IMG/VR virus record: IMGVR_UViG_3300011113_000608
Coordinates: 1 to 29,446 of that record
Direction: 5' to 3' (one strand)
Source of the DNA: a virus
DNA: 29,446 bases
Shown here: piece by piece, positions 13,210 through 27,073 of the stretch
Layout of the letters: each line of letters begins with the position of its first letter
Numbering within the stretch: position 1 is the stretch's first letter
Made by a program: the position numbers and the translations under genes
Notes under the pieces: model-generated
The model's input: the letters and a program-made list of their open reading frames with translations, nothing else
Told to the model about the DNA's origin: nothing
The model's database searches: none

Positions 13210-13245
13210 TTTTATTTATTCTGTATTACCTTTATTTTATACGAA

Positions 13246-13887: not shown

Positions 13888-14104
13888 TATCAGCCTTCTC
13901 TTTTTTGTGCTTGTTTAACTTTACCAAAGTTTTACGCAAGTTGGCTTGTTTTACTGTTTTTTCATCATACTTGTCAGGGCTAGAAAGTACGTTCTCTTGA
14001 AGCTGGGCAGTTGTGATGCCACGCTTCTTGGCCTTAGCTGTAAACGCACCTTCTTTCATATCCATATCTTGGATAAATTTTTTATCTTTCTTCTTGTCTG
14101 CCAT
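13880..14104 (-). CDS. Small basic phage protein, 74 aa
   Basis: Lys-rich protein with the pattern GAFTAKAKKRGIT ... SPDKYDEKTVKQANLRKTL. I recall similar short basic proteins with a GAFTAKAKKAG-type motif followed by a helix containing KTVKQAN from many tailed phages, where they lie among virion genes; their function is unknown. ATG 14104 has AGAGG about 9 nt upstream. The overlap with the next gene (8 nt) and closeness to the one before (3 nt) indicate a single operon. Confidence 0.7.
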   Translation of the reverse strand: MADKKKDKKFIQDMDMKEGAFTAKAKKRGITTAQLQENVLSSPDKYDEKTVKQANLRKTLVKLNKHKKEKADNG

Positions 14105-14107
14105 GGC

Positions 14108-16778: not shown

Positions 16779-16797
16779 ATTAAACTTAATTTAACTT

Positions 16798-16823
16798 GCC
16801 GGGCTTAAAAACCCGGCTTTTTT
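16798..16823 (+). terminator. Rho-independent terminator
   Basis: A GCCGGG / CCCGGC stem with an 8-nt AT-rich loop is followed directly by six T residues (16818-16823). It lies 20 nt after the stop of the 75-residue gene and separates it from the control region and the accessory operon. Confidence 0.9.
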
Positions 16824-17025
16824 GTGTCAATTTTTGGGCTAATTAGAGATTTTACATACAAAAACACCCTATATAACCCTGAATTGGGGTGCAAATTTTC
16901 TGACTGTTCTCCCACCTTGTAGAGGAAAGCGAATGTGGGGAGAAAAAAAAGAAAGGTGTAATGGGTCCATTGTTTAAGGGGAAGTGGCAACGGGAGTAGG
17001 GCGCGTAGACAAGGGAAGGATACCT

Positions 17026-17278: not shown

Positions 17279-17291
17279 TTCATTAATAAAT

Positions 17292-17321
17292 AGGGGGCTG
17301 CGCATCCTAACAACGCAGACA
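17292..17321 (+). ncRNA. Element E1: H-type pseudoknot in 5' leader
   Basis: AGGG (17292-17295) can pair with TCCT (17305-17308), and CTGCG (17298-17302) with CGCAG (17314-17318), giving interleaved stems of 4 and 5 bp. The connecting loops are GG and A-rich AACAA, the usual geometry of an H-type pseudoknot. The same 30 nt recur exactly at 19974-20003. This copy heads the leader of the small-gene operon. Confidence 0.55.
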
Positions 17322-17330
17322 CAGCCTACA

Positions 17331-17347
17331 GCGGAGATGGGCACCGC
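17331..17347 (+). ncRNA. Element A1: GCGG/CCGC hairpin before ribosome-binding site
   Basis: GCGG and CCGC close a 9-nt loop, AGATGGGCA. It lies 6 nt before a Shine-Dalgarno (AGGAG, 17354-17358) and is one of four near-identical copies (others at 17485, 17824, 18018), each at the same place relative to a start codon. Confidence 0.65.
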
Positions 17348-17364
17348 ACAATTAGGAGATCCCT

Positions 17365-17433
17365 GTGGAATTCGTTATTTTCCTGATCGCATGTGCAGTT
17401 ATGGCTGCATTTGCTAAGGCAGGTCAACGTTAA
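17365..17433 (+). CDS. Tiny hydrophobic membrane peptide, 22 aa
   Basis: Starts at GTG 17365, 6 nt after AGGAG, and encodes a peptide that is essentially one membrane span (EFVIFLIACAVMAAFAKAGQ) with an acidic start and a basic end. It is the first gene of the small-gene operon, sharing the same hairpin, Shine-Dalgarno and start layout as three later genes; that layout is the main reason to believe so short a gene. Its stop codon lies inside the 5' strand of RNA element B1. A membrane-active or regulatory peptide is likely; no family is recognised. Confidence 0.55.
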   Translation: MEFVIFLIACAVMAAFAKAGQR

Positions 17434-17473
17434 GTACCAGGCGTGAGCCGGGGGATCGAATCCCCTACTTAAC
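17429..17473 (+). ncRNA. Element B1: tRNA-like three-way junction over the stop codon
   Basis: The outer stem GTTAAGT / ACTTAAC is 7 bp. Inside are a GGC-GTGA-GCC hairpin with a GNRA loop (17440-17449) and a 5-bp stem GGGGG / CCCCT with the 7-nt loop ATCGAAT (17450-17466). The last hairpin abuts the outer 3' strand with no linker, as the T-arm abuts the acceptor stem in tRNA. The stop TAA (17431-17433) is in the outer 5' strand. TATTACC follows. The second well-formed copy, at 18556, has a different outer stem that still pairs. Confidence 0.6.
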
Positions 17474-17484
17474 TATTACCCCCA

Positions 17485-17501
17485 GCGGAGATGGGTACCG
17501 C
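17485..17501 (+). ncRNA. Element A2: GCGG/CCGC hairpin
   Basis: Second copy of hairpin A, loop AGATGGGTA (T instead of C at one loop position). It is followed by GGAG and a GTG start at 17518. The ATG within its loop is in frame with the gene, but the loop ATG is out of frame at two of the four copies, so I do not take it as the start. Confidence 0.65.
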
Positions 17502-17517
17502 ACACACGGAGAACACC

Positions 17518-17772
17518 GTGAGCGTTTTTAACACGGCAACAATTAGCGCCGACGGCCTTCAACAGGAGGGCTTGCTCCTCCCGACCAGGGAAGAGCTAGC
17601 AGATCGCGCTTTCGATACCATCCAGTTTTGGATGGAGTCAGGCCACTCGCAGCTACTAAGCTGTGAGCAGGCTCTTCAGATCGCCGCATGGGGTCTGAAG
17701 ATTTCAGGTCATTCCGACCTGAAACATGCAGTTCTTGCAGAGCTTGTAGAGCTCCCAGAGAACTACGGCTGA
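17518..17772 (+). CDS. Unknown small protein, 84 aa
   Basis: GTG 17518 is chosen as start because GGAG lies 7-8 nt upstream, at the same distance from hairpin A as in the sister genes. The product (SVFNTATISADGLQQEGLLL ... ELVELPENYG) is acidic with a helical centre (REELADRAFDTIQFWMESG, then CEQALQIAAWGLKISG). It has no membrane span and no recognised motif. The stop TGA lies in the outer 5' strand of element B3. Confidence 0.75.
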   Translation: MSVFNTATISADGLQQEGLLLPTREELADRAFDTIQFWMESGHSQLLSCEQALQIAAWGLKISGHSDLKHAVLAELVELPENYG

Positions 17773-17816
17773 TCCGTTAAAGCGGGTGACCAGGTGCAAA
17801 CCCTGGTCCAGTTATT
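17767..17816 (+). ncRNA. Element B3: structured intergenic RNA, first copy of a 50-nt duplicate
   Basis: GACCAGG (17788-17794) and CCTGGTC (17802-17808) form a 7-bp stem with the loop TGCAAAC, T-loop-like. CCG / CGG (17774-17776, 17783-17785) form a small hairpin before it. A weak outer stem GGCTG / CAGTT contains two G-T pairs and encloses both; the stop TGA is in its 5' strand. It is followed by TATTACCC. The 50 nt are repeated exactly at 17961-18010. Confidence 0.55.
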
Positions 17817-17823
17817 ACCCTTA

Positions 17824-17840
17824 GCGGAGATGGGTACCGC
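17824..17840 (+). ncRNA. Element A3: GCGG/CCGC hairpin
   Basis: Third copy of hairpin A (loop AGATGGGTA), followed by AGGAG and a GTG start at 17857 in the standard arrangement. Confidence 0.65.
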
Positions 17841-17856
17841 ACAACAGGAGATTCCT

Positions 17857-17952
17857 GTGGACTACACACCAGTTGGTCAGGTTATCGCACCTTACGTTGC
17901 ATTGGCTGCAATCTTTATTGCGGCTATCGTAATAGGTTATGTAATCGACTGA
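17857..17952 (+). CDS. Tiny single-span membrane protein, 31 aa
   Basis: GTG start with AGGAG 7 nt upstream, downstream of hairpin A3. The product has a short polar head (DYTPVGQVIAP) and one membrane span (YVALAAIFIAAIVIGYVI) ending in Asp. With the 22-residue peptide at 17365 it makes a pair of mini membrane proteins in one operon, separated by a soluble protein. Such peptides can act as holin or antiholin components, host membrane-complex modulators or superinfection blockers; nothing here distinguishes these. Confidence 0.6.
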   Translation: MDYTPVGQVIAPYVALAAIFIAAIVIGYVID

Positions 17953-17960
17953 TCCGTACC

Positions 17961-18010
17961 GGCTGATCCGTTAAAGCGGGTGACCAGGTGCAAACCCTGG
18001 TCCAGTTATT
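17961..18010 (+). ncRNA. Element B4: second copy of the 50-nt structured repeat
   Basis: Exact copy of 17767-17816, with the same 7-bp T-arm-like stem (17982-17988 with 17996-18002), CCG/CGG hairpin and flanking GGCTG/CAGTT. Here the gene's real stop (17950-17952) lies in an extra partial copy of the repeat's beginning (CTGATCCG), so the element begins 8 nt after the stop. TATTGCC follows. Confidence 0.55.
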
Positions 18011-18017
18011 GCCTACA

Positions 18018-18034
18018 GCGGAGATGGGCACCGC
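18018..18034 (+). ncRNA. Element A4: GCGG/CCGC hairpin
   Basis: Fourth copy of hairpin A (loop AGATGGGCA), followed by AGGAG and, in this copy, an ATG start at 18052. Confidence 0.65.
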
Positions 18035-18051
18035 ACAATCAGGAGTAAGTC

Positions 18052-18288
18052 ATGAAAACGAACCAAATGGCACTAGCAGCAGCGAGCAAAGCTCGCGAGT
18101 TAGGCTGGGAGGTACGCCTCAGGCTAGATCAGTCCGACGTCTTGGACTGGGCAACAGTTGTTGCTTGGGCTCCAGGTAGCAAAAGAGTCCGCGCCATTAG
18201 GTTCATTGAAGGCGAAGAAGCTTTCAGAGGCTGGAAGTCAATCAAGCAGCTTGAGGATTTGCTTGCTTACAGTAATGCATTAGGCTAA
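18052..18288 (+). CDS. Unknown small protein, 78 aa
   Basis: ATG 18052 is preceded by AGGAG (8 nt) and hairpin A4. The protein has an N-terminal helix (QMALAAASKARELGW), a strand-rich middle (EVRLRLDQSDVLDWATVVAW, then KRVRAIRFIEGE) and a C-terminal helix (SIKQLEDLLAYSNALG), a small alpha/beta layout. I do not recognise a family. It is soluble and mildly charged. It is the last gene in the hairpin-A series. Confidence 0.75.
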   Translation: MKTNQMALAAASKARELGWEVRLRLDQSDVLDWATVVAWAPGSKRVRAIRFIEGEEAFRGWKSIKQLEDLLAYSNALG

Positions 18289-18293
18289 ACACC

Positions 18294-18329
18294 CCTTGGC
18301 ACTGTGATTAAACATAGGTAAGTCCAAGG
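18294..18329 (+). ncRNA. Element D1: two-stem RNA with CA/GTAAGT internal loop
   Basis: Outer stem CCTTGG / CCAAGG; then CA; inner stem CTGTG / CATAG (one G-T pair) with the loop ATTAAA; then GTAAGT leading straight back into the outer stem. The same layout with different stem sequences occurs at 24232 and 25616. It precedes the GTG-start gene at 18359, whose Shine-Dalgarno (AGGAG) lies between. Confidence 0.6.
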
Positions 18330-18358
18330 TCAATTCAACCACCAATCAGGAGAACACC

Positions 18359-18559
18359 GTGACAATTACGGAATGTTGGGTAGTTACCTACTCGGCTTGG
18401 GACAATCAGTTCCAGGAAGAGTTTGAGGTTCAAACAGTGTTTGATACACAGACAAAAGCCATGCAACATGCGTGGCGTTTAGAAGATGATCTTGCAGATG
18501 GCATTCGTATGGAAAAAGTATTGTGTGGAAAACCACAAGCTGATGACATTCCTTTCTGA
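18359..18559 (+). CDS. Unknown small acidic protein, 66 aa
   Basis: GTG 18359 with AGGAG 8 nt upstream. The product begins with strands (TITECWVVTYSAWDNQFQEE) and continues with a helix (TKAMQHAWRLEDDLADGIRM), ending QADDIPF. The arrangement of a strand, an aromatic pattern and a helix resembles small phage accessory proteins, but no family is identified. The stop TGA lies in the outer 5' strand of element B2. Confidence 0.75.
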   Translation: MTITECWVVTYSAWDNQFQEEFEVQTVFDTQTKAMQHAWRLEDDLADGIRMEKVLCGKPQADDIPF

Positions 18560-18599
18560 GTACTAGGCGTGATGCCGGGGGATCAAATCCCCCACTCAG
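18556..18599 (+). ncRNA. Element B2: tRNA-like three-way junction over the stop codon
   Basis: Outer stem CTGAGT / ACTCAG (6 bp); hairpin GGC / GCC with loop GTGAT (18566-18576); hairpin GGGGG / CCCCC with 7-nt loop ATCAAAT (18577-18593) abutting the outer 3' strand. Compared with B1, the outer stem is different but still pairs, while the inner arms and T-loop-like sequence are kept. TATTGCC follows, as after the other copies. The stop TGA is at 18557-18559. Confidence 0.65.
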
Positions 18600-18603
18600 T
18601 ATT

Positions 18604-18622
18604 GCCACACACTGAGTGTGGC
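18604..18622 (+). ncRNA. Hairpin GCCACAC / GTGTGGC in 5' leader
   Basis: A 7-bp stem with the loop ACTGA, directly after element B2, in the place where hairpin A stands in the earlier intergenic regions. Its CTGAGTG (18612-18618) can instead pair with CACTCAG (18593-18599) of element B2, so the two structures compete. Confidence 0.55.
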
Positions 18623-18635
18623 TTAATCACAATCA

Positions 18636-18890
18636 ATGACTACTAGCACTATTGAACGCATCATAAAAGATGCACGTCTGCTTGCCAGGCGCGATTCGAC
18701 CAGTCAACATCCATGCATTGACTGGTCTATTGAGGACAAGCGTCAACAACTACTGGAGATGTATTTCCAGTGGCAAGACGGTGCATTAGAGTGGGATGCT
18801 TTGCACCCATTAGCACACTTTCTTAAGAAGTGTGTTGACCGAAATGCACTCCTGCTTAGATATATGCAGGAGTATGGCATCGAAGATTAG
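18636..18890 (+). CDS. Unknown helical protein, 84 aa
   Basis: ATG 18636 without a Shine-Dalgarno, 14 nt after a hairpin. The protein is highly helical and charged (TIERIIKDARLLARRD ... KRQQLLEMYFQWQDG ... FLKKCVDRNALLLRYMQEYG), probably a small helical bundle. It contains two Cys and several Trp, and no hydrophobic span. The family is unknown. Confidence 0.75.
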   Translation: MTTSTIERIIKDARLLARRDSTSQHPCIDWSIEDKRQQLLEMYFQWQDGALEWDALHPLAHFLKKCVDRNALLLRYMQEYGIED

Positions 18891-18895
18891 TTAAA

Positions 18896-19173
18896 CCTGC
18901 TATGCTTTGGAGGGTTCAGCTGACCCTCCTGGCCAGGAGTTAACTCGTCTACAGGAACTCAGAAAAGTTCCACCAAACTTCTTTGGGCGTGATGAACCTA
19001 AAGTCGTAGCAGGTATAGGGCGCCCGCCGCACGGGCTGAAGGACTATTGCGTCCTGACCCTATATATGTCTACAAAAATTAAGAAGGGAGGAGCTGCCCC
19101 ATGATCAGTGGCACAGCTCGTCTGTTACCAACTAGGGGAGACCGTAAAAACCCTAGTTCCCTTGTACAAAGGG
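18896..19173 (+). ncRNA. Candidate structured non-coding RNA, about 280 nt
   Basis: This gap holds no convincing gene but is packed with perfect stems. P1 CCTGCTA / TAGCAGG (18896-18902 with 19007-19013) encloses three hairpins: GGAGGGT/ACCCTCC (18909-18929), GGAACT/AGTTCC (18954-18971) and CCAAA/TTTGG (18973-18986). P2 TATAGGG / CCCTATA (19014-19020 with 19058-19064) starts at the next base and encloses GCCCG/CGGGC and AGGAC/GTCCT. Further hairpins are GAGCTG/CAGCTC (19091-19119), AACTAGGG/CCCTAGTT (19130-19158) and CCCTT/AAGGG (19159-19173). P1 and P2 would stack end to end. It could be a free RNA or a very long leader for the gene at 19232. I match it to no known RNA family. Confidence 0.55.
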
Positions 19174-19231
19174 GCTGACACGGTTCTTCTTCACCCCAAT
19201 AGTATTCTAACCACACTTAATGGAGAATCCA

Positions 19232-19429
19232 ATGGCTAACTACGTTCACATTGTGTATCACCCTGTTTCAAAAGACATTACGCATTGCTTCAATGATATT
19301 AATGAGGCGAGGAAATATGCAATCCACGCTCATGGCACTTCAAACACTATAGAAAGTTATCGTTTGTGGTCTCAATTTGAGATCGTTAACGAGGACGAAG
19401 ACAGTGACATACTATATGGAATGCGATGA
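19232..19429 (+). CDS. Unknown small protein, 65 aa
   Basis: ATG 19232 is chosen because GGAG (19222-19225) lies 6 nt upstream; an ATG at 19220 would overlap that site. The product (MANYVHIVYHPVSKDITHCF ... YGMR) starts with a strand pair followed by a helix (DINEARKYAIHAHG) and an acidic end. Its stop overlaps the next start (ATGA). No family recognised. Confidence 0.75.
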   Translation: MANYVHIVYHPVSKDITHCFNDINEARKYAIHAHGTSNTIESYRLWSQFEIVNEDEDSDILYGMR

Positions 19430-19641
19430 AGAACTATCATAAAATCGTAGGTCGCTACGTTGAACTTGATTCGTACCAACGCAAAAATCTAAACATGTTT
19501 CATTCAAAGATGCTTGGCAAAGTATTAGATGCAACAGCTTTTATATTGATGTCATTCATTGTTGCAACTGCTGTAATGGCAGCTGCAGGTATTGACATCA
19601 CACAACTACACCCACACCCACAGGAGATTCATCATGACTAA
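19426..19641 (+). CDS. Small membrane protein, 71 aa
   Basis: Starts at an ATGA overlap with the previous gene. A polar, basic N-terminus (MKNYHKIVGRYVELDSYQRK) precedes one strong membrane span (ATAFILMSFIVATAVMAAAG, about residues 36-55). A short His/Pro-rich tail (LHPHPQEIHHD) follows. The positive-inside rule suggests the N-terminus is cytoplasmic. It overlaps the next membrane-protein gene by 8 nt, so the two probably work in the same membrane. Confidence 0.75.
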   Translation: MKNYHKIVGRYVELDSYQRKNLNMFHSKMLGKVLDATAFILMSFIVATAVMAAAGIDITQLHPHPQEIHHD

Positions 19642-19966
19642 AAGCTTTCCACCAGTAGATGATGCATTAGCACTACTGCAAAAGGTTGATTGGCGACGTG
19701 TCGCCTACAACATTGTTATGACACTGGTAACTATTACAGCAGTAATCATTGCTGTGGTCCAATGGAGTATTAAGACATATCGCCAGTGGCAAGCTGATCA
19801 CGGCGCAGAGTTTGTTCTAAGCTTTACACAGTATTGTGGCAAGCTTATTAATACAATAGATATTATTGCTAACTGGAATCTAGAGTACGTTGCAGATGTA
19901 CCAGAGCCAATGGTTACACTAGCAAAAGTACCAAGTACGCGTACTAGAAAGCGACAACTTAAATAA
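19634..19966 (+). CDS. Single-span membrane protein, 110 aa
   Basis: ATG 19634 has AGGAG (19622-19626) 7 nt upstream, deciding against an earlier start. One hydrophobic span lies at about residues 25-46 (IVMTLVTITAVIIAVVQWSI). A soluble C-terminal part of about 65 residues follows, ending in a basic cluster (RTRKRQLK). Together with the preceding 71-residue membrane protein it forms a translationally linked pair. Function unknown; holin/antiholin, host-envelope modification or superinfection exclusion are the usual options for such pairs. Confidence 0.75.
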   Translation: MTKSFPPVDDALALLQKVDWRRVAYNIVMTLVTITAVIIAVVQWSIKTYRQWQADHGAEFVLSFTQYCGKLINTIDIIANWNLEYVADVPEPMVTLAKVPSTRTRKRQLK

Positions 19967-19973
19967 GATTGAC

Positions 19974-20003
19974 AGGGGGCTGCGCATCCTAACAACGCAG
20001 ACA
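19974..20003 (+). ncRNA. Element E2: H-type pseudoknot, exact copy of E1
   Basis: AGGG (19974-19977) pairs with TCCT (19987-19990), and CTGCG (19980-19984) with CGCAG (19996-20000). All 30 nt match 17292-17321, 2.7 kb away, while the flanks differ. It is the leader of a gene that starts 18 nt later without a Shine-Dalgarno. Confidence 0.6.
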
Positions 20004-20021
20004 TCCAATCGCATTCACACT

Positions 20022-20375
20022 ATGCTACTCAACGAACAAGAACAAATAGCCAAAACATTTGGCTACGAACCATTGACAGAAGCGGAAGGGCAGGAGCAGT
20101 ATCCTGTCGAGTGCTGCTTCCAAGATCCACTTAAAGGTCAGCTGCCGTATAACGGTGCTGTTTATAAGAATAAGAAGGGAGTACTCATGTGCTATTGGAT
20201 ACCCCAGGGAAAAAACTATAGGCATGAACAAGAAGATCTGATTGGTTGGTATGAGGTGCCAACAATGGAAGACATAGAAGAATGGACGTTTGATTCATGT
20301 TGTTTATCACCCGCAAGCGATGACGTAGAACCAGATCACCCTGACAGCTGGCTGTCATTACTAGGAATAATCTGA
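20022..20375 (+). CDS. Unknown protein, 117 aa
   Basis: ATG 20022 follows pseudoknot E2 and has no Shine-Dalgarno. The protein is acidic and aromatic, with a likely beta-rich centre (NGAVYKNKKGVLMCYWIPQG) and an acidic region (VPTMEDIEEWTFDSCCLSPA) with paired cysteines (CC twice). No membrane span. Not recognised. Confidence 0.75.
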   Translation: MLLNEQEQIAKTFGYEPLTEAEGQEQYPVECCFQDPLKGQLPYNGAVYKNKKGVLMCYWIPQGKNYRHEQEDLIGWYEVPTMEDIEEWTFDSCCLSPASDDVEPDHPDSWLSLLGII

Positions 20376-20403
20376 CGTTACAAACTATTAAAGGCTGATA
20401 ACC

Positions 20404-20430
20404 CGTCCTAGGCATGACGTTAAACTGCCT
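20404..20430 (+). ncRNA. Element C1: H-type pseudoknot in 5' leader
   Basis: CGTC (20404-20407) pairs with GACG (20416-20419), and AGGCA (20410-20414) with TGCCT (20426-20430). Connectors are CT, T and TTAAAC. Copies at 21789 and 22482 keep the loops and the first stem but change the second stem in a paired manner. Confidence 0.65.
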
Positions 20431-20452
20431 ATGTTCCACTGCAATTCAACTC

Positions 20453-20725
20453 ATGACTTTAGACAGGACTCCAGAGTGCGCATGCGAACGCTGGATTAAA
20501 GAGATGAACGCTATTCTTAAACAAGAAGAAGCCAAATACATAATGTACGCTGCACCCCAGTGGGTGCTAGACAAGATCTCAGAATGTATTGATGCACTAG
20601 AAGAGGTGACGGGCTATGACCCAACACCTGAGTATCTCTATGACAACACCGGAGGTGAGTCTGCTGTAACAACAGCAGAGATTCATAATGCTCACTGGCA
20701 ACAACACCAGGAGCTACACAAGTAA
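20453..20725 (+). CDS. Unknown protein, 90 aa
   Basis: ATG 20453 is taken as start. An in-frame ATG at 20414 lies inside the pseudoknot, and its counterpart is absent from the third copy (22482), so it is not needed. The product has Cys residues near the start (PECACERWI), a helix (AILKQEEAKYIMYAAPQWVL, then ECIDALEEVTG) and an acidic end. The stop shares a base with the next start (TAATG). No family recognised. Confidence 0.7.
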   Translation: MTLDRTPECACERWIKEMNAILKQEEAKYIMYAAPQWVLDKISECIDALEEVTGYDPTPEYLYDNTGGESAVTTAEIHNAHWQQHQELHK

Positions 20726-20994
20726 TGAGTACAACCACCTCTGGAATAAGTACAATGAATCACTATGTTGCATTAGTGGCAGATGCCACGGGCAGATACG
20801 CTCATGTTTATGGCAAGCACATGACATGGGATAAGTTTTGCGATGAGCTTGAATCAGCAGGCTGCGAAACAATAGAGGATCAGTCAGATGACTATGTCAC
20901 TGATAACAAGGTTGTGTTCAGTGAGCTAGCAGCAAATGCTGTATGCACATTACAAGAGTTGATAGATGCGCCAGGCTTTACGCCGTTTGTCTAG
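20725..20994 (+). CDS. Unknown acidic protein, 89 aa
   Basis: Starts at TAATG, overlapping the previous stop by one base. Alternating strands and helices (HYVALVADATGRYAHVYG, then WDKFCDELESAGCETIED, then LQELIDAPGFTPFV) suggest a small alpha/beta fold. No motif recognised. A 36-nt pyrimidine-rich spacer without clear structure follows. Confidence 0.75.
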   Translation: MSTTTSGISTMNHYVALVADATGRYAHVYGKHMTWDKFCDELESAGCETIEDQSDDYVTDNKVVFSELAANAVCTLQELIDAPGFTPFV

Positions 20995-21030
20995 TCCCCT
21001 CCCCCCTGTCCACCATCACCACGAAAACTA

Positions 21031-21339
21031 ATGACAAATGCTCCATTGCCTATTGGTGGTACACACTTTGGTGCCATCATTGATTACAAGATCAAGTACG
21101 ATGACGTATGGCATGATCGCACCGTATACCTGGTGAACAAACAACATGCCATCAATTGGTTGACAGAGGATTGGGTAAGCCTATCCAAGGAACATTCCAC
21201 GGTACTGGTCAATGTTGAATTCGACCAGCTGGTCTGTTTCCCTGACATTGATCCTATCGATGTTACAGGATATGAAGATCCTACCGATGCTGACATGATA
21301 TTTAGTATGGATGTCAAACAGAATCTAATAAAATCCTAA
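21031..21339 (+). CDS. Unknown protein, 102 aa
   Basis: ATG 21031, no Shine-Dalgarno and no visible leader structure; the spacer before it is C-rich. The protein (MTNAPLPIGGTHFGAIIDYK ... QNLIKS) is acidic, with aromatic strands and the sequence CFPDIDPIDVTGYEDPTDAD near its end. No membrane span and no known family. Confidence 0.75.
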   Translation: MTNAPLPIGGTHFGAIIDYKIKYDDVWHDRTVYLVNKQHAINWLTEDWVSLSKEHSTVLVNVEFDQLVCFPDIDPIDVTGYEDPTDADMIFSMDVKQNLIKS

Positions 21340-21371
21340 GTTTATTAATCAAACCTTAACTTTCCCATCCA

Positions 21372-21575
21372 ATGTCTAACTCTGATCTGACTGTGCCTGA
21401 TGCCATAAGCTTGCGTCGTATTGAAGCGATGCGGTTCGTGGCATTAATGAAAGAATCCGCTGACCGTAATGGGATCGGATTCATTGGAGGCTTCATTGAT
21501 CCTGTCACTGGTGAGAAATTTACCATGACAAATATGAACGATGATAACATCCATCCACGCATCGAAGGTATCTAA
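21372..21575 (+). CDS. Unknown small protein, 67 aa
   Basis: ATG 21372 without a Shine-Dalgarno. A helix (DAISLRRIEAMRFVALMKES) is followed by a Gly-containing beta hairpin (GIGFIGGFIDPVTGEKFTMT) and an end rich in Asn and Asp. The stop lies one base before the next start, so the two genes are coupled. No family recognised. Confidence 0.75.
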   Translation: MSNSDLTVPDAISLRRIEAMRFVALMKESADRNGIGFIGGFIDPVTGEKFTMTNMNDDNIHPRIEGI

Positions 21576-21576
21576 A

Positions 21577-21777
21577 ATGACTCACGAGAAATCACTGTTT
21601 AACTTTGACAAGACTTGGAATGGTATTAACATCACAGAGAATGGCATCAAGTCATTTTCTAAATCATTCCAGTTAGGTCCATTGCAACTCACGCTAAATG
21701 CTCGTGGGTCAGGCGTCCATGCATCCATTGGATTGCCTGGTACTGGCCTAAGTAAACGCAACATAAAGATTCTGTAA
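21577..21777 (+). CDS. DUF4236-like small protein, 66 aa
   Basis: ATG 21577 follows the previous stop by one base, with AAGG about 8-9 nt upstream. The C-terminal half (KSFQLGPLQLTLNARGSGVH, then ASIGLPGTGLSKR) resembles DUF4236, whose consensus carries a repeated strand with S/G-V-x-x-S-x-G-x-P-G-x-G-x-S. DUF4236 proteins are short beta-rich proteins of unknown function found in bacteria and phages. Similarity is judged by eye. Confidence 0.6.
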   Translation: MTHEKSLFNFDKTWNGINITENGIKSFSKSFQLGPLQLTLNARGSGVHASIGLPGTGLSKRNIKIL

Positions 21778-21788
21778 CTAAGATGACT

Positions 21789-21817
21789 CGTCCTCAGGCA
21801 TGACGTTAAACTGCCTG
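21789..21817 (+). ncRNA. Element C2: H-type pseudoknot in 5' leader
   Basis: CGTC (21789-21792) pairs with GACG (21802-21805), and CAGGCA (21795-21800) with TGCCTG (21812-21817), so the second stem is one pair longer than in C1. Connectors CT, T and TTAAAC are identical to C1. The sequence after it up to the start codon is also similar to C1. Confidence 0.65.
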
Positions 21818-21838
21818 TGTCCCATCACAATTCAACTC

Positions 21839-22051
21839 ATGACCAGTACTGAGCTTTACCGCATGACCGAGACCATGACTAAGTACGGGGGCAAGTTCGT
21901 CAGTACTATGGCCGACGCTCTACGGTATGCTGATCCCACTAACCGGGGACGTATCTTAGATGCGTTTCCAGATCTAGTCCAACGCTATGGCCCTGGCTCT
22001 GCGTTCCAGCAGCCAGCGACTGTAGCTACGCAACAACTGCAGGAGGTTTGA
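21839..22051 (+). CDS. Unknown protein, 70 aa
   Basis: ATG 21839 (MTSTELYRMTETMTKYGG) is used; an in-frame ATG at 21800 lies inside the pseudoknot. The protein is helical with Asp/Arg-rich stretches (TMADALRYADPTNRGRILDA) and a Gln-rich end (QPATVATQQLQEV). The last codons overlap the strong AGGAGG of the next gene. Not recognised. Confidence 0.7.
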   Translation: MTSTELYRMTETMTKYGGKFVSTMADALRYADPTNRGRILDAFPDLVQRYGPGSAFQQPATVATQQLQEV

Positions 22052-22053
22052 TC

Positions 22054-22299
22054 ATGATCATTGAAAACATTGATGTCACTCCATTAGATGGCGACTACTT
22101 TATCTATGTGGAGGCATGGATCGATGACAGGATTCAAGTAAGTCCTGCCACATGGGAGGAACCAGCAGAGTTCAAGCCTGGCCTATGCCATGCTAACTTT
22201 GTTGTAGAGGATCAACCTCCCACTGACCCAGACAAACTCGAAGCCTGGGTACGTGAACAAGACATTGACTGGATTGATGTTGACCTATCGGAGATCTAA
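22054..22299 (+). CDS. Unknown acidic protein, 81 aa
   Basis: ATG 22054 has the consensus AGGAGG (22041-22046) 7 nt upstream, the best ribosome-binding site of the right half. The protein is acidic and probably beta-rich (MIIENIDVTPLDGDYFIYVE, then AWIDDRIQVSPATW) with a C-terminal helix (DKLEAWVREQDIDWIDVDLS). No family recognised. Confidence 0.75.
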   Translation: MIIENIDVTPLDGDYFIYVEAWIDDRIQVSPATWEEPAEFKPGLCHANFVVEDQPPTDPDKLEAWVREQDIDWIDVDLSEI

Positions 22300-22303
22300 C
22301 AAA

Positions 22304-22477
22304 ATGATTGGATTCATTATTGAGTTTAGGCCTTGGTATCTTGTCTTCCGTGGGCCACGGGGACGTATATACCTAGCCTTTGGATTTGCTAAACGCTTAC
22401 CTAAGCTAAGCAAGTTCCATGCAACGCTTTATGATAGGTACCAAGAGCGTATGCAATTTGGTATCGAATACGATTAG
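22304..22477 (+). CDS. Small basic aromatic protein, 57 aa
   Basis: ATG 22304 is four nt after the previous stop, with GGAG about 11 nt upstream. The product (MIGFIIEFRPWYLVFRGPRG ... QFGIEYD) is rich in Phe, Tyr and Arg, suggesting a compact beta sheet with a basic face, possibly nucleic-acid binding. No known family. Confidence 0.7.
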   Translation: MIGFIIEFRPWYLVFRGPRGRIYLAFGFAKRLPKLSKFHATLYDRYQERMQFGIEYD

Positions 22478-22481
22478 GTCC

Positions 22482-22508
22482 ACGTCCTAAGCAAGACGTT
22501 AAACTGCT
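22482..22508 (+). ncRNA. Element C3: H-type pseudoknot in 5' leader
   Basis: ACGTC (22482-22486) pairs with GACGT (22495-22499), and AGCA (22490-22493) with TGCT (22505-22508). A G-C pair of the second stem in C1/C2 is here A-T, a compensatory change. Connectors CT and TTAAAC are kept. It leads the PcfJ-like gene, which starts 22 nt later without a Shine-Dalgarno. Confidence 0.65.
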
Positions 22509-22529
22509 ACTCATTTATTATTCATTCAC

Positions 22530-24224
22530 ATGCAATTCCAACTGCCTGCTAACCTGCGCACAGAACTATTGGCTTATGATCCAAAGTCAAAAGCTTTGGC
22601 TAAAGCTATTGCTACTGCAAACAAACCTAAGAAACAACGCACTCATCTTGGCTTGCCTGATGATATCATCCCTGCACATATCATTACACCTAATGATTTA
22701 CTTGCAGCAGTAACTGCTATTAACCAAGTGGAAATGCCATATCGTTACCATACTTTTAGTATTGATACAAAAGATATGATAGCTACAAAGAAACTTAAAG
22801 CTGTTGTATACCACTACGAATCTTTGTGGATTGCAGCATGGTTACCTAATGCAGGCGAAGACTATATCTATGGGTTTACTTATGCATTCAAGAATACAGA
22901 AACTGTACGCAAACAGATATACATTAGAGACATAGATATAAAAGATACTATTATTAAAAAGTATGGACGTATGGAGTTTAATGTCTACACACAATTTGTA
23001 ACAGCGGAAGATGTATTTAATGGATGTCAATCACACTATTGGGAGCATGGCAACTTCAAAGGATATAATGCAAAAGGCAGAGAGATGAGGCCAAGTGTAA
23101 TACAACCATTCAGAGAAGCCATTATAAATTCAATACCTACTTATACTGATGGTGGTATATGGGACAGAATAGATGCAGCTCAAAATAATTACTATGAATT
23201 ATTACACTTGCGTTATGAGGCAATACCAAAAAATCAAAACATTGTGCCTAGCTTTGAATTGTATATGGAAATACTAAAGGCAAAGTATCCTCAAGATTCA
23301 GATACACCATTTACTGTTATACAAGAGAAACTTAGTAAGCCATGGTTTAAACGTTACATCAATGAACAGTGTCAATTAATTATTAATACGTTTAATAATC
23401 CAGCCACTAAGTCCAAGAAAGAAATTAATTCTATACACAAAAGACTTATGCATACTTTGACTTGGATTTTAGATATCCTTAGTATATATCCTGACTGCCC
23501 TATGGATTATTTACAGACTGGTATACAAACTAATATGTTTTTATTTCTTAAACGTATCTATTCACTAGTCTATTACAGAACTGATTCGTTAACAAAAAAA
23601 TGGCTAGCAACCAACCTGCCAGTAGCATCATTATTTAATATGCTAAACAAATATATAGAAGATGAAAAGTCAAATATTAGATATAAAGATAGTCAAACGG
23701 ATTGTTATATGCTTTCATTTTATTCGCTTATAGATACCATGGACATGATTGATAGTGTATTAACTAAAGGCAAGGAGATTGCTCCACCTAAGCGTTGGCG
23801 TTACGCTGAGTTTCATGATCATGTACAAGCAGAAGCCTGGAAGATAACTAACCCAAACCAAAAACTACCACAGGATTTATTCCCTGTTCCTGTTAAAGTA
23901 AAACTTGATGATGAGTCCTGGATATTTATTCAACCCATAGATACTCATCAGCTTGCACAATGGGGGCAAGCAGTACGTAACTGTGTGGGCGTATCATCAA
24001 CATACGCCAATGCTGTTAAAGATAAGAAACAATTCATTGTCTTATGTATGGTTGATAACAAGCCTGTATTTACAATACAACTCAAAGTATCCAATGGCAT
24101 CATGCATGTAGAACAGATTTCAGGACCAAGTAACAAATCATTAACATCTATAGAACGTGAGAAGTATCAAGGTATATTTCAAGAAGCTTTACAGATCCGT
24201 GAGAAAGACCTAGTATCTAACTGA
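22530..24224 (+). CDS. PcfJ-like protein, 564 aa
   Basis: The C-terminal ~120 residues carry the PcfJ-like pattern: HQLAQWGQAVRNCVGVSSTY, then FIVLCMVDNKPVFTIQL, then HVEQISGPSNKSL. That is a helix ending in R-N-C-V-G, a two-stranded segment, and a Q-x-x-G-x-x-N-like motif. The family was named from a conjugative plasmid gene and is common in phages and plasmids; its biochemical role is not known to me. The N-terminal ~400 residues are helical and mostly unrecognised. The gene is visibly more AT-rich than the genes before it, which may point to separate acquisition. It is the largest gene of the accessory block. Confidence 0.7.
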   Translation: MQFQLPANLRTELLAYDPKSKALAKAIATANKPKKQRTHLGLPDDIIPAHIITPNDLLAAVTAINQVEMPYRYHTFSIDTKDMIATKKLKAVVYHYESLWIAAWLPNAGEDYIYGFTYAFKNTETVRKQIYIRDIDIKDTIIKKYGRMEFNVYTQFVTAEDVFNGCQSHYWEHGNFKGYNAKGREMRPSVIQPFREAIINSIPTYTDGGIWDRIDAAQNNYYELLHLRYEAIPKNQNIVPSFELYMEILKAKYPQDSDTPFTVIQEKLSKPWFKRYINEQCQLIINTFNNPATKSKKEINSIHKRLMHTLTWILDILSIYPDCPMDYLQTGIQTNMFLFLKRIYSLVYYRTDSLTKKWLATNLPVASLFNMLNKYIEDEKSNIRYKDSQTDCYMLSFYSLIDTMDMIDSVLTKGKEIAPPKRWRYAEFHDHVQAEAWKITNPNQKLPQDLFPVPVKVKLDDESWIFIQPIDTHQLAQWGQAVRNCVGVSSTYANAVKDKKQFIVLCMVDNKPVFTIQLKVSNGIMHVEQISGPSNKSLTSIEREKYQGIFQEALQIREKDLVSN

Positions 24225-24231
24225 TCAATCA

Positions 24232-24266
24232 CTGGGCAGTTAGGGCTAACCTGGCGTAAGTCCCAG
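24232..24266 (+). ncRNA. Element D2: two-stem RNA with CA/GTAAGT internal loop
   Basis: Outer stem CTGGG (24232-24236) / CCCAG (24262-24266); CA; inner stem GTTAG (24239-24243) / CTGGC (24251-24255) with two G-T pairs and the loop GGCTAAC; then GTAAGT (24256-24261). Same plan as D1 with both stems changed. It sits between the PcfJ-like gene and the gene at 24283. Confidence 0.6.
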
Positions 24267-24282
24267 ACTACGTTTTTATCTC

Positions 24283-24495
24283 ATGGCACAAAACTACACC
24301 AATGATCAACTGCTAGCTATGGCTATGGGAAACCTTGGTACTTTTATTGAAACAAATACAAGACATTACATTCTTGTAGAAGATGATCCACGTAATGAAG
24401 AAGACTCCGACACATGGTCTTATGGTACTGAACCAGTACCTGGTGACCAGGCCTGGAAGACAGGTGCAATTAAAGTTGATGCAGTTGAAGTATAA
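24283..24495 (+). CDS. Unknown acidic protein, 70 aa
   Basis: ATG 24283 follows element D2 by 16 nt; no Shine-Dalgarno. The protein (MAQNYTNDQLLAMAMGNLGT ... KVDAVEV) has an N-terminal helix and an acidic, Asp/Glu/Trp-rich remainder (EDDPRNEEDSDTWSYG). No motif known. It overlaps the next gene by one base (TAATG). Confidence 0.75.
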   Translation: MAQNYTNDQLLAMAMGNLGTFIETNTRHYILVEDDPRNEEDSDTWSYGTEPVPGDQAWKTGAIKVDAVEV

Positions 24496-24668
24496 TGACT
24501 AAAGAATTACTTGATCAAGCTTATGCACTTTGCAACAAACTTGAAAAGTTGTGCTGGCAAACAGCAATAAAGCAAGACAAACCATTGTATAACAAATACA
24601 AACAACTAGAATATAAATCTTGGATTCGTTATGAACGGCGTTTTAAAAAGTATAAAAGAAATAATTAA
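24495..24668 (+). CDS. Small basic helical protein, 57 aa
   Basis: Begins ATGACTAAA at a TAATG overlap with the previous gene and runs to TAA 24668. The product is a charged helix (MTKELLDQAYALCNKLEKLC) with a very basic end (SWIRYERRFKKYKRNN), likely to bind nucleic acid or an acidic partner. Its end overlaps the next gene by 38 nt in another frame. The ATGACTAA start, shared with many genes further right, supports it. Confidence 0.6.
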   Translation: MTKELLDQAYALCNKLEKLCWQTAIKQDKPLYNKYKQLEYKSWIRYERRFKKYKRNN

Positions 24669-25605
24669 TCCTGCTCGTTCTTCTATTACAAAAGAAGAAT
24701 TCTTTAACCAATTGTTTTCACAAGCAAAACAAAAATTTGTAATTGAACCTGAACCTATTATTACAAGACAAAATAACGGCGATTTAACACAAGCTTTACA
24801 TAGGTCTCAACAGTTTGCTCAACGTACATTACAACAACATATTGATACAGGAGCTTTAGAATTTGATCATATTTTTAGATCTATGGGGATTCATTCTAAT
24901 TTATCTGAAACATTAAGGTATCCAACAGTACATTATATATTAGAGCCAGGAGTTAATTATAAACGCCAACATAAACTACCTCAAAATCAAACTCGCCCTA
25001 CCATAGAATCACCTGGTACAATTCAAGAATTTATAGGATTCAAAGATACACCAATGATGGATTGGGATGTGGCTGGTCCTTATCATGCAGAACGCAATGC
25101 AACTATTAGACATTTAGGAGATGTAGAAGATCGTGTTCAAAACTATTTAGCACAAAGACCAGATGCAACAATTAAATTATATCAAACACCAGGGGGATAT
25201 CGTGCATTTGATTTAACAACAAGACAATCACCTATTCAATTTAATTCATCATTTGATTTATTAGATGTTGATCCAGACTATCGTATGATTTCACAACAAA
25301 GACCAAATGTTATTAAATATGAAGGAACAATTCCTGTGAATGATACAGAACGATTTAACGCTAGAATTAATCCTAAACTTAATCGTATTGACTGGGTTGC
25401 ACAACCTATTGCAGAAATTAAAAGAACACAATCTGTTGTTGATCCTGAAAGCATGCGACGCGTACGTATGTATCATGATGAACCTATTGAAAAAAATTTT
25501 TTAACAGGTCAAGCACAAACTGCAGGCATTGAAAAAGTTAAAGAAAATTTACCGACTGCTTCACGTTTTCTTCAAGAACAAATTAAATCTTACTTAGGTT
25601 TGTAA
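24631..25605 (+). CDS. Unknown protein with weak primase-like motifs, 324 aa
   Basis: Not recognised with confidence. The central part holds MMDWDVAGPYHAER and, about 40 residues later, IKLYQTPGGYRAFDLTT. An acidic D-x-D strand followed by a y-x-T-x-x-G-x-R/H strand is also seen in archaeo-eukaryotic primase-like domains, but the match is loose and a third motif is not evident. The N-terminal 100 residues are helical (FNQLFSQAKQKFVIEPEPII). The gene is strongly AT-rich compared with its downstream neighbour. Start ATG 24631 overlaps the previous gene by 38 nt and lacks a Shine-Dalgarno. Confidence 0.7.
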   Translation: MNGVLKSIKEIINPARSSITKEEFFNQLFSQAKQKFVIEPEPIITRQNNGDLTQALHRSQQFAQRTLQQHIDTGALEFDHIFRSMGIHSNLSETLRYPTVHYILEPGVNYKRQHKLPQNQTRPTIESPGTIQEFIGFKDTPMMDWDVAGPYHAERNATIRHLGDVEDRVQNYLAQRPDATIKLYQTPGGYRAFDLTTRQSPIQFNSSFDLLDVDPDYRMISQQRPNVIKYEGTIPVNDTERFNARINPKLNRIDWVAQPIAEIKRTQSVVDPESMRRVRMYHDEPIEKNFLTGQAQTAGIEKVKENLPTASRFLQEQIKSYLGL

Positions 25606-25615
25606 GGTACAATAG

Positions 25616-25649
25616 CTGGGCTCTAACCTTTTGGTTGGGTAAGCCCCAG
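25616..25649 (+). ncRNA. Element D3: two-stem RNA with CT/GTAAGC internal loop
   Basis: Outer stem CTGGG (25616-25620) / CCCAG (25645-25649); CT; inner stem CTAACC (25623-25628) / GGTTGG (25633-25638) with the loop TTTT; then GTAAGC (25639-25644). Same plan as D1 and D2. It lies 32 nt before the start of the gene at 25682. Confidence 0.6.
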
Positions 25650-25681
25650 GCTTTAGACTACTCATCCACTGCACTTAACTT

Positions 25682-26047
25682 ATGTCAATTCTATCTTGCT
25701 TTAGTGGCCTTATTCCACAAGTCCATGCCTACATGGATGATGACAAACGCTATAACCTAGGTGCAACCTGGATTGATAGCGAAGGATTAACTGACACTCA
25801 CAATCTAGAGCTAAGGTATGTACGTAATTCAGAGCGGCTTGCGCTCCAGGGTCAGCCACAGCCTGATGGAAGTTGGGCCTATGTGGAAGCCAATGGTACG
25901 GTTCATACCATATCAGCTGCCCGTGCTCAGGCATTTATGGATAAGACCCATGAGCATGCAACGATTATGTGTCAAATGCTTGATCGCCTTAAGGAGAAGG
26001 GCATGGTAGGTGAGACTCACGAGACTCAGGCTGTACCTGTAACATAA
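25682..26047 (+). CDS. Unknown protein, 121 aa
   Basis: ATG 25682, no Shine-Dalgarno, downstream of element D3. It has a short hydrophobic start (MSILSCFSGLIPQVHAYM), a strand-rich centre (LELRYVRNSERLALQGQPQP, then DGSWAYVEANGTVHTI) and a C-terminal helix (HATIMCQMLDRLKEKG). The start is too short and polar for a clear signal peptide. It is the last gene before a strong terminator, so the accessory transcript ends here. No family recognised. Confidence 0.75.
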   Translation: MSILSCFSGLIPQVHAYMDDDKRYNLGATWIDSEGLTDTHNLELRYVRNSERLALQGQPQPDGSWAYVEANGTVHTISAARAQAFMDKTHEHATIMCQMLDRLKEKGMVGETHETQAVPVT

Positions 26048-26055
26048 TATTAAAT

Positions 26056-26090
26056 AAAACTAAGGTCAGTCAACCACTGGCCTTAGTTTT
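26056..26090 (+). terminator. Strong intrinsic terminator, 15-bp stem
   Basis: AAAACTAAGGTCAGT (26056-26070) pairs along its full length (one T-G pair) with 26076-26090, closing the 5-nt loop CAACC; the 3' strand ends in TTTT. The symmetry, A-run on one side and T-run on the other, would let it work on both strands. It separates the accessory operon from the coupled chain that follows. Confidence 0.9.
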
Positions 26091-26139
26091 ACTATACTAT
26101 CCTTGTTCATTCATTCAACATGACTAACTAACAACCGAT

Positions 26140-26170
26140 CGACAATAAGGCTGAGTCGTTAACCCTGCCT
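26140..26170 (+). ncRNA. Element C4: diverged H-type pseudoknot
   Basis: CGAC (26140-26143) pairs with GTCG (26155-26158), and AGGC (26148-26151) with GCCT (26167-26170). The loop TTAACCCT resembles TTAAAC of C1-C3. The first stem is CGAC/GTCG where the other copies have CGTC/GACG, a compensatory change. It leads the gene at 26198, after the terminator. Confidence 0.5.
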
Positions 26171-26197
26171 GTTCTTTGATCCTTTTTCTTTACAACA

Positions 26198-26512
26198 ATG
26201 GAAGCTTCTGTGTCCAACATTCAAATCAACGGCGTTGACTGTGTTCGCGCTGATTCTGCTCCTGCTGCTCAGCCCAATGGCAACCGCGCTGTGGTGGTAG
26301 TGGATCGTGGCTGGATTTTTGCTGGTGATGTGACCAGGGGAGATGGCCGCATCCGACTAAGCCGTGCGTTGCATGTATTCAAATGGGAATCCATTGGATT
26401 TGCCAAGATGGTTGAAACGGCAAAGGCTGATCTGCGCGCAATTGCTGATGTGGATATTCCTGCTGGCGCAGAGATTTTCTGTGTACCAGTTTCTGAAAAC
26501 TGGGGGCTGTGA
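26198..26512 (+). CDS. DUF6948-like protein, 104 aa
   Basis: First gene after the terminator; ATG 26198 lacks a Shine-Dalgarno and follows a pyrimidine-rich leader. The sequence has a strand pair (RAVVVVDRGWIFAGDVTRGD), an arginine strand (RIRLSRALHVFKWESIGFAK), a helix and the ending IPAGAEIFCVPVSENWGL. This order recalls DUF6948, a beta-rich phage and bacterial domain of unknown function; judged by eye. The stop shares a base with the next start (TGATG). Confidence 0.55.
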   Translation: MEASVSNIQINGVDCVRADSAPAAQPNGNRAVVVVDRGWIFAGDVTRGDGRIRLSRALHVFKWESIGFAKMVETAKADLRAIADVDIPAGAEIFCVPVSENWGL

Positions 26513-26577
26513 TGTTCCGACCAGTTGGTGACGGCTGGGGCACGTGTTCGCCCTATCGTGGCAAACGGGTTGAATGA
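26512..26577 (+). CDS. Minimal paralog of the Gly-Tyr proteins, 21 aa
   Basis: A 22-codon gene between overlapping starts (TGATG before, ATGA after). The peptide MFRPVGDGWGTCSPYRGKRV-E has exactly the conserved ends of the next two genes (RPVG at the start, GTCSPYRG-RVE at the end) without their Gly-Tyr insert. Shared ends and the coupled position are the reasons for calling so short a gene. It could be the ancestor or a collapsed form of the other two. Function unknown. Confidence 0.6.
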   Translation: MFRPVGDGWGTCSPYRGKRVE

Positions 26578-26858
26578 CTAAACTGTTCCGACCAGTTGGC
26601 TACGGCAACGGCTATGGCTACGGCTACGGCTACGGCAACGGCCACGGCTACGGCTACGGCTACGGCAACGGCTATGGCTATGGCAACGGCTACGACACCG
26701 GCTACGGCTACGGCAACGGCTACGGCAACGGCTACGGCACCGGCAACGGCAACGGCCACGGTTACGGCAACGGCGGTAGCTATGGCAACGGCTACGGCAG
26801 TGGCCAAGGCACCGGCTTTGGCACATGTTCGCCTCACCGCAACAGGAGGGTTGAATGA
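26574..26858 (+). CDS. Gly-Tyr-Asn repeat protein, 94 aa
   Basis: ATGA overlap start. The ends MTKLFRPVG and GTCSPHRNRRVE are conserved with the flanking paralogs. Between them lie about 70 residues of GYG, GNG and GHG repeats (for example GYGNGYGYGYGYGNGHGYG), a low-complexity sequence of Gly alternating with Tyr, Asn, His or Ser. The insert is GC-rich and made of GGCTAC/GGCAAC hexamers. Such sequences are disordered and can self-associate; no enzyme activity is likely. The single Cys near the C-terminus is shared by all three paralogs. Confidence 0.75.
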   Translation: MTKLFRPVGYGNGYGYGYGYGNGHGYGYGYGNGYGYGNGYDTGYGYGNGYGNGYGTGNGNGHGYGNGGSYGNGYGSGQGTGFGTCSPHRNRRVE

Positions 26859-27030
26859 CTAAACTGTCCAGGCCAGTTGGCACCGGCCGAGGCAACGGCT
26901 ATGGCTACGGCTACGGCACCGGCTACGGCGACGGCTACGGCTACGGCTACGGCACCGGCTACGGCGACGGCGACGGCAACGGCTACGGCTACGGCTGGGG
27001 CGACGGCTACGGTAACGGCCAAGGCAGTGG
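26590..27030 (+). repeat. GGCTAC/GGCAAC hexamer repeats within two genes
   Basis: Degenerate hexamer repeats spell Gly-Tyr and Gly-Asn in the two paralogous genes (about 26590-26820 and 26885-27030), separated by the non-repetitive gene ends. Open frames on the other strand and in other frames here (Ala-Val and Ala-Thr repeats) are by-products of the repeat. Confidence 0.85.
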
Positions 27031-27073
27031 CTTTGGCACCTGTTCACCGCATCGTGGCAGGAGGGTTGAATGA
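26855..27073 (+). CDS. Gly-Tyr-Asp repeat protein, 72 aa
   Basis: Third tandem paralog, starting at an ATGA overlap with GGAGGG a few bases upstream. The ends MTKLSRPVG and GTCSPHRGRRVE match the other two. The repeat is shorter than in the preceding copy and includes Asp and Trp (GYGDGYGYGYGTGYGDGDGN, GYGWGDGYG). The charge is therefore more acidic than in the second copy. The size series 21, 94 and 72 residues indicates rapid change in repeat number. Confidence 0.75.
   Translation: MTKLSRPVGTGRGNGYGYGYGTGYGDGYGYGYGTGYGDGDGNGYGYGWGDGYGNGQGSGFGTCSPHRGRRVE

Follow-up and report, generated by a model that had tools for sequence, protein, structure and literature searches.

What is encoded in the spacers of a close-packed phage operon when the same short sequences recur there ahead of unrelated genes? 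The question is raised by a 29.4-kb virus record in IMG/VR (IMGVR_UViG_3300011113_000608), the whole of which is here called the window, and in particular by an operon of plus-strand genes that begins at about 17.3 kb. A preliminary description of the window named five element types, A to E, re-used in a regular order, and proposed a phage-wide, possibly undescribed system of RNA control or mRNA protection. Base-pair covariation establishes B, A, D and E as RNA structures under selection; each sits directly at the stop codon of the preceding gene, and a short leader separates it from the next start. B with A, D and E are three covariation-supported RNA families outside Rfam 15, and the claim that ordered RNA elements are re-used before unrelated genes is borne out. 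A function in mRNA protection or RNA control is suggested by position, host range, a motif shared with the coremin of RNA viruses, and mimicry of tRNA. The reading that we prefer, with a probability of about 0.45, is that the spacers may hold exchangeable signals that section and protect mRNA, D blocking RNase J and B mimicking tRNA for RNase Z or RNase P.

Distribution of the elements

The stretch surveyed runs from 17,281 to 26,198, with gene starts fixed beforehand. As anticipated, most spacers longer than 35 nucleotides (nt) carry an element, 11 out of 14: B with A at 17429, 17767 and 17961, B with a plain hairpin at 18555, E at 18295, 24232 and 25616, C at 19974, and D at 20404, 21789 and 22483. 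The leader of the first gene bears C and A at 17292. Element-free spacers are 20995-21030, 26048-26197 and 18891-19231, the last holding a different, long structured RNA. All of these elements are on the plus strand. A further plus-strand match to E, at 22110, lies inside a coding region and was taken as false.

The large genes at 184-16,459, the late block, occupy the minus strand, on which the B, D and E scanners found no match anywhere in the window. When the last 19.4 kb of the window was compared with 50,697 phage records the sole near DNA match was the cultured freshwater cyanophage S-EIV1, and 114 of the 126 loci bearing B have at least one protein in common with a reference set of S-EIV1 and the window. 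For these reasons the window is taken to be a fragment of an S-EIV1-like cyanophage, from which we infer the host. The complete S-EIV1 genome holds five copies of D and two of B, every one on the minus strand between 25.9 and 43.8 kb, against 0-0.1 matches in the shuffled genome; neither element was found among its plus-strand late genes. We discarded a sixth, weak match to D, at 42471 on the plus strand, in which the conserved bases are missing. The late block is therefore free of elements, as had been reported, and the term phage-wide has to be abandoned, since the elements keep to one transcriptional strand.

Two cautions apply to all counts given here. Because exact seeds were used to retrieve the sequence sets, conservation within a seed is no evidence, and many IMG/VR contigs are relatives, so sites are not independent of one another.

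The Rfam 15 covariance models gave no match in the window at E<=1 and none for D at E<=10, a single 9.5-bit, opposite-strand chance match for B with A, and only tRNAs and one sub-threshold frnS match on loci with D and E. No earlier description was found in the open-licence PubMed Central (PMC) literature on S-EIV1, cyanophage RNA motifs, phage exoribonuclease-resistant RNA (xrRNA) or phage pseudoknots. To that extent the system does appear undescribed, with the qualification that the core of D is common to coremin.

Element B and the modules that follow it

B is a minihelix of about 12 base pairs (bp) that resembles the acceptor and T-arm of tRNA, is capped by a T-loop and has the upstream stop codon inside. 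Its components are, in order, a 5′ strand containing the stop, a linker of mostly 8-17 nt, the stem of the T-loop, the 3′ strand of the outer stem and A/C-TT-RCC. The outer stem (P1) and T-stem together amount to 11-13 bp, with a mode of 12, and the split between them shifts between 8+4 and 5+7; the 7-nt loop conforms to [TAG][TG]CRAxx. An unbiased set of 98 usable copies was retrieved by the 3′ half only, and 577 of its 588 free T-stem pairs are Watson-Crick (shuffle mean 310). In 194 sites the stop begins at position +2 or +3 of P1, numbered from 0. ARAGORN called no tRNA in the window and B has no anticodon arm, so it is not a tRNA cloverleaf; the possibility of a tRNA gene was rejected. 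The window copies are at 17429..17480 (split 8+4, stop TAA inside), 17767..17819 (split 5+7, TGA inside), 17961..18013 (a second copy with the 5+7 split) and 18555..18606 (TGA inside).

The preliminary description placed the sequence TATTRCC and then a hairpin, A, after B. The order holds, and A is almost always preceded by the B architecture, but A is a pseudoknot in which TRCC pairs with GGYA, so that TATTRCC contains the 5′ strand of the pseudoknot, and plain hairpins are about as common at the same place. After 315 B sites in the fetched loci there are 153 A pseudoknots and 137 plain hairpins of 5-8 bp. The purine-pyrimidine pair of the 153 pseudoknots is G-C in 107, A-T in 45 and G-T in one, with no mismatch. 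More broadly, RCC(C/T) pairs with (G/A)GGY as GCCT/AGGC (47), GCCC/GGGC (46), ACCC/GGGT (43) or GCCT/GGGC (11), and the hairpin stem varies among GCGG/CCGC (121), GTGG/CCAC (16) and GCAG/CTGC (14). The near-invariance of A is in part due to the search seed. A search with its core returned 81 IMG/VR stretches as opposed to two matches in 257 Gb of bacterial and archaeal genomes, which lack B and were taken as chance; the four-copy motif of the window has a chance expectation of 0.04. Those four copies are at 17478..17503 (TACCC/GGGTA, stem GCGG/CCGC), 17817..17842, 18011..18036 and, after C and without B, 17324..17349, the last assigned by motif and pairing rule. At 18604..18622 the hairpin GCCACAC-ACTGA-GTGTGGC, a module seen in many other copies, takes the place of the pseudoknot.

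Pseudoknot and hairpin alike begin at RCC or one base before it in 92 of the 98 unbiased copies. Upstream of orthologous genes a pseudoknot in one copy readily gives way to a hairpin in another, and two small clusters show an exchange of B and D; this interchange suggests that the modules do equivalent jobs. The view of A as a universal, sequence-specific element is weakened, since the unbiased search with B shows other hairpins at the same place. A role for A as a translation start was also discarded, as only two of the window's four copies have the ATG inside GAGATGGG in frame with the start codon. In loci L006 and L011, on the minus strand, a different hairpin (AGGCTTCAGGCCT..) replaces B ahead of the A pseudoknot, which suggests that A has further 5′ partners.

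What follows the module depends on its type. A Shine-Dalgarno (SD) sequence precedes 76 of 139 starts after the A pseudoknot, 6 of 128 after B with a hairpin, 27 of 157 after E and, in this lineage, 1 of 136 after D. SD with GTG is largely confined to the A pseudoknot, and the type of start codon follows the module. The rule proposed earlier, SD and mostly GTG after A and a start without SD after C or E, with D in either context, is thus largely right for A; SD is nearly absent after D and E is mixed, the window copy at 18295 having both SD and GTG. Mainly after the A pseudoknot, a strong SD and the start codon are enclosed together in one covarying hairpin (CAGGAG..CCTGTG, CACGGAG..CCGTG, CATGGAG..CCATG). 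This arrangement occurs at 86 of the 153 pseudoknot sites; in the window it is seen at 17505..17520 (CACGG-AGAACA-CCGTG, GTG at 17518) and 17844..17859 (ACAGG-AGATT-CCTGT(G), GTG at 17857). Leaders after B with a hairpin mostly lack SD, as do those after D in this lineage, which are open and contain 6% G.

Elements D, E and C

D is an H-type pseudoknot of 28 nt, NNNC-C-TNNGCA-N-GNNN-NNAAAC-TGCNNA. A structure scan located 253 sites in 2.37 Mb of fetched, search-enriched DNA and two in 1.05 Mb of shuffled sequence. The three outer pairs of stem 1 all covary, and 287 of 390 free positions in stem 2 are paired against a shuffle mean of 178. The element follows the stop codon by 5 nt in 77 of 235 sites and by 6 nt in 25, which places its beginning inside the footprint of the terminating ribosome, and the distance to the next ATG peaks at 20-22 nt. 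Only 29 of the 235 sites are within open reading frames (ORFs) of at least 100 amino acids, both strands counted; for the elements to be equally common in coding DNA would have told against the preliminary description, and for D this is not the case. A readthrough or recoding signal was considered and rejected: extensions past the stop are short, with a median of 18 codons, which argues that there is no in-frame recoding. The scanner found the window copy at 20404..20431; that at 22483..22510 is 5 nt past the stop codon at 22477, and a third, at 21789..21817, escaped the scanner and was read by eye, its loop being one base longer (CGTCCTCAGGCATGACGTTAAACTGCCTG).

The implied restriction of the elements to this phage does not hold for D, which occurs far beyond the lineage; 36 viral contigs that bear it encode no detectable S-EIV1 or window protein. 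It is intergenic in cultured or named cyanobacterial phages with Nostoc, Microcystis and Synechococcus hosts, in phages of Staphylococcus (>80 records), Streptococcus, Lactobacillus, Latilactobacillus, Geobacillus, Anoxybacillus and Moorella, and in those of Arthrobacter, Mycobacterium and Paracoccus. Two Stenotrophomonas records, neither listed nor inspected, are counted among the matches. Phages of gammaproteobacteria gave no significant BLAST match; hits in Vibrio, Pseudomonas, Salmonella and Enterobacter have E>=0.4, fall under annotated coding sequences and were dismissed as chance. The scaffold gene, or a related head gene, lies downstream of D in phages of Lactobacillus, Streptococcus, Geobacillus and Staphylococcus (L267, L272, L273, L274); in other phages D lies 1-4 nt before tRNA genes. 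Several Gram-positive phages have D far from a stop codon (48 nt in phiEF-1.1, about 125 nt in Javan271). L272 and L273 have GGGGCTTATGCAA in common downstream of D.

E is a two-stem element with a conserved GTAAG, CTGGGCA-hairpin-GTAAGTCCCAG, and a scan gave 172 good sites versus six in shuffled sequence. The outer stem is CTG/CAG in 76 copies, CTT/AAG in 57 and CTA/TAG in ten, and there are 75 distinct inner stems. The commonest starting point of E is 3-4 nt past a stop, and it ends 27-31 nt ahead of an ATG. In about 30 loci (including L006, L015, L037, L098 and L116) it is placed 3-4 nt ahead of a phage tRNA-Leu(UAA) gene and overlaps the 3′ end of a small gene, essentially one orthologous locus. 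The window copies are at 18295..18328 (outer stem CTTGG/CCAAG, GTAAGT, with SD and GTG next) and, both from the scanner, 24232..24266 and 25616..25649.

C is the hairpin GGGGGCTGCGCATCCTAACAACGCAGAC, which precedes the A pseudoknot at 17292..17321 and has an identical copy at 19974..20003. Its recurrence is real; as a regular element type it is rare, being found in six IMG/VR stretches.

Comparison with known RNAs

Beny-, cucumo- and other RNA viruses carry coremin, or xrRNA-C, whose motif, GUCCGAAGACGUUAAACUAC, stalls Xrn1; intergenic copies are known, scanning ribosomes are also stalled in vitro, and the survey cited here was restricted to RNA viruses, with neither phages nor bacteria mentioned in its main text (PMC10520033). 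The commonest form of D is CGUC C......U GACG UUAAAC, the stem and spacer of which (CGUC..GACGUUAAAC) match coremin; the core common to both is GUCC..GACGUUAAACU. Each has a CGUC/GACG stem of 4 bp with an invariant top C-G, C as the first loop base and the spacer UUAAAC. The first hairpin (hp1) of D keeps the top C-G while its other pairs are exchangeable, and the spacer is UUAAAC in most copies and NNAAAC in all that were scanned, the AAAC being by construction. Unlike coremin, D has an 8-nt loop, with T or C rather than G at position 2, is closed by a 6-bp pseudoknot between loop and 3′ strand, has no second hairpin (hp2) and belongs to DNA phages of bacteria.

B shares a 12-bp coaxial acceptor and T helix and a T-loop with tRNA, viral tRNA-like structures and the minihelix substrates of RNase P and RNase Z, together with a G-containing linker and a discriminator-like A. 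It differs from tRNA in having neither anticodon arm nor CCA, in the movable split of the 12 bp, in its location in mRNA spacers and in the stop codon inside. The classical minimal substrate of both enzymes is a helix of this kind, with about 12 bp of acceptor and T stem closed by a T-loop. In mitochondrial tRNA punctuation polycistronic RNA is likewise divided at tRNA-shaped signals between genes, but B is a phage-borne mimic of half a tRNA rather than a functional one, and cutting at it is only predicted. The ompA-type stabilisers of bacterial mRNAs are stem-loops at, or a few bases from, the 5′ end; here, by contrast, the 5′ end would be made by processing and the stem is often a pseudoknot. 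We take D, at 28 nt, to be too short for the nested double pseudoknot of hepatitis delta virus (HDV)-type ribozymes, a fold compared without alignment. The HDV-like theta ribozymes of phages are, as D is, small pseudoknotted RNAs beside phage tRNA genes (PMC10879173).

Possible function

Several questions follow. Which enzyme might meet each element? Where would the transcript be cut? Do other explanations account equally well for the arrangement?

Under the reading that we prefer, exchangeable cis-acting modules would split long early and middle transcripts into separately stable messages. Xrn1 is not known from bacteria, where RNase J does a similar job. Gammaproteobacteria mostly lack RNase J, and the named hosts of D-bearing phages belong to groups that possess it. 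The enzyme is essential in cyanobacteria (PMC7283877, PMC10989914), that of Synechocystis is a robust 5′ exonuclease (PMC7283877), and purified RNase J1 is blocked in vitro by a flaviviral xrRNA that it never meets in nature (PMC5760640). Because the position between stop and start, the host range and the coremin-like sequence need a single account, D is most simply seen as a phage RNase J block. It would halt the exonuclease arriving from decayed upstream RNA, much as coremin of plant viruses resists Xrn1, and leave the downstream gene with a minimal leader of about 20 nt.

B would mimic the acceptor/T-arm half of tRNA and recruit a tRNA end-processing enzyme. The tRNA elbow is gripped by both RNase P and RNase Z (PMC4810234), and cyanobacteria have one RNase Z gene (PMC10989914). 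RNase Z is favoured because a cut by it would keep the stop codon and put a stem at the new 5′ end, whereas RNase P would remove the stop. The predicted RNase Z cut is after the discriminator-like A of A-UU, with cleavage by RNase E in AUU as an alternative. In that case the upstream mRNA would retain its stop codon and acquire a tRNA-like 3′ terminus. In the downstream mRNA a stem or pseudoknot would lie two or three bases in from the newly made 5′ terminus. The exchange of pseudoknot for hairpin and the fixed start of the stem are as might be expected of a generic 5′-end block. E, judged by analogy of position, may act as a third such module.

Several points weigh against this reading. The coremin loop, YGAD or YGNNAD, is not seen in D, where position 2 is T in 220 of 235 sites, C in 15 and G in none, and the 35 nt downstream fold no better than shuffled sequence (-1.0 versus -0.9 kcal/mol), with no sign of hp2; because D lacks both features we do not file it as coremin. 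Cutting by RNase P at P1 would delete the upstream stop codon. The copies of D and E that lie 1-4 nt before tRNA genes are better suited to protection of a 3′ end. The host range of D is biased by cyanophage BLAST seeds and by the phage collection, and a whole-genome test of the association of D with host RNase J gave 0/369 and 2/391, with 2 and about 4 in the reversed-pattern controls.

The tRNA-proximal copies lead to the idea that the modules stabilise the 3′ end of the upstream gene, blocking 3′-5′ exonucleases after a cut further downstream, by RNase E in the leader or by RNase P at a tRNA. The fixed distance from the stop (5 nt for D, 3-4 nt for E, overlap for B) would agree with this, as would modules that end where RNase P creates a 3′ end. 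The distance to the next start is just as tight, however, and the coremin-like core is linked to blocking in the 5′-3′ direction. Moreover, the copies of D far from a stop or before scaffold genes do not fit, and E before tRNA-Leu represents one locus, not many independent ones. We regard 3′ stabilisation as quite improbable. Unlikely also is that the modules control translation or bind a phage or host protein, either insulating ribosomes at the stop codon from the next start or gating initiation, with the SD/start hairpin after A as the output. That hairpin, the tracking of start-codon type with module, the position of D within the ribosome footprint and the in vitro stalling of scanning ribosomes by coremin (PMC10520033) all speak for such control, yet after D in this lineage the leader is open, poor in G and without SD, and extensions past the stop are short, without in-frame recoding. 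Pseudoknot and hairpin also swap freely, which makes a sequence-specific binder of A unlikely. Finally, the elements are repeated, intergenic and one-stranded, as ordinary transcription signals or DNA repeats such as terminators, promoters or mobile repeats might be. Compensatory changes in many stems imply selection on RNA pairing, not on DNA sequence, and the copies read have no U tract after D, B, A or E, on which ground terminators were rejected; we consider this explanation very improbable.

More doubtful than the sectioning of transcripts in the window is a broader proposal, that D is a widespread exoribonuclease-resistant RNA countering RNase J, which S-EIV1-like cyanophages have extended into a full punctuation system (B, A or hairpins, and E) cutting transcripts into protected messages. 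If D blocks RNase J, then exonuclease-resistant RNAs would be a general viral answer to 5′-3′ decay, beyond the RNA viruses of eukaryotes, and a 28-nt element would make it possible to test what RNase J does during phage infection. If B is a decoy for tRNA processing, the phage would have evolved tRNA punctuation without tRNAs. Both elements, so understood, would offer portable mRNA-stability parts for cyanobacteria and Gram-positive bacteria. Even without a mechanism, three covariation-supported families absent from Rfam, one of them spread across phages of several bacterial phyla, merit names.

Other features of the window

The 341-nt spacer at 18891-19231 has long-range complementarity between CCTGCTA near 18895 and TAGCAGG near 19009 and a predicted fold of about -120 kcal/mol, a value without shuffle control. 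It is 94-95% identical in L071 and L138, and its 3′ part is about 75% identical in L015 and L175; it is probably an undescribed noncoding RNA. At 26574-27073 two adjacent ORFs consist of short repeats rich in Gly, Tyr and Asn (GGCTACGGCAAC...), with repeated spacers that end in GGGTTGAATGACTAAA. Terminator-like hairpins are present at both borders of the element-bearing operon, at 16797-16825 (GCCGGGCTTAAAAACCCGGCTTTTTTG) and 26060-26090 (AACTAAGGTCAGTCAACCACTGGCCTTAGTTTTACT).

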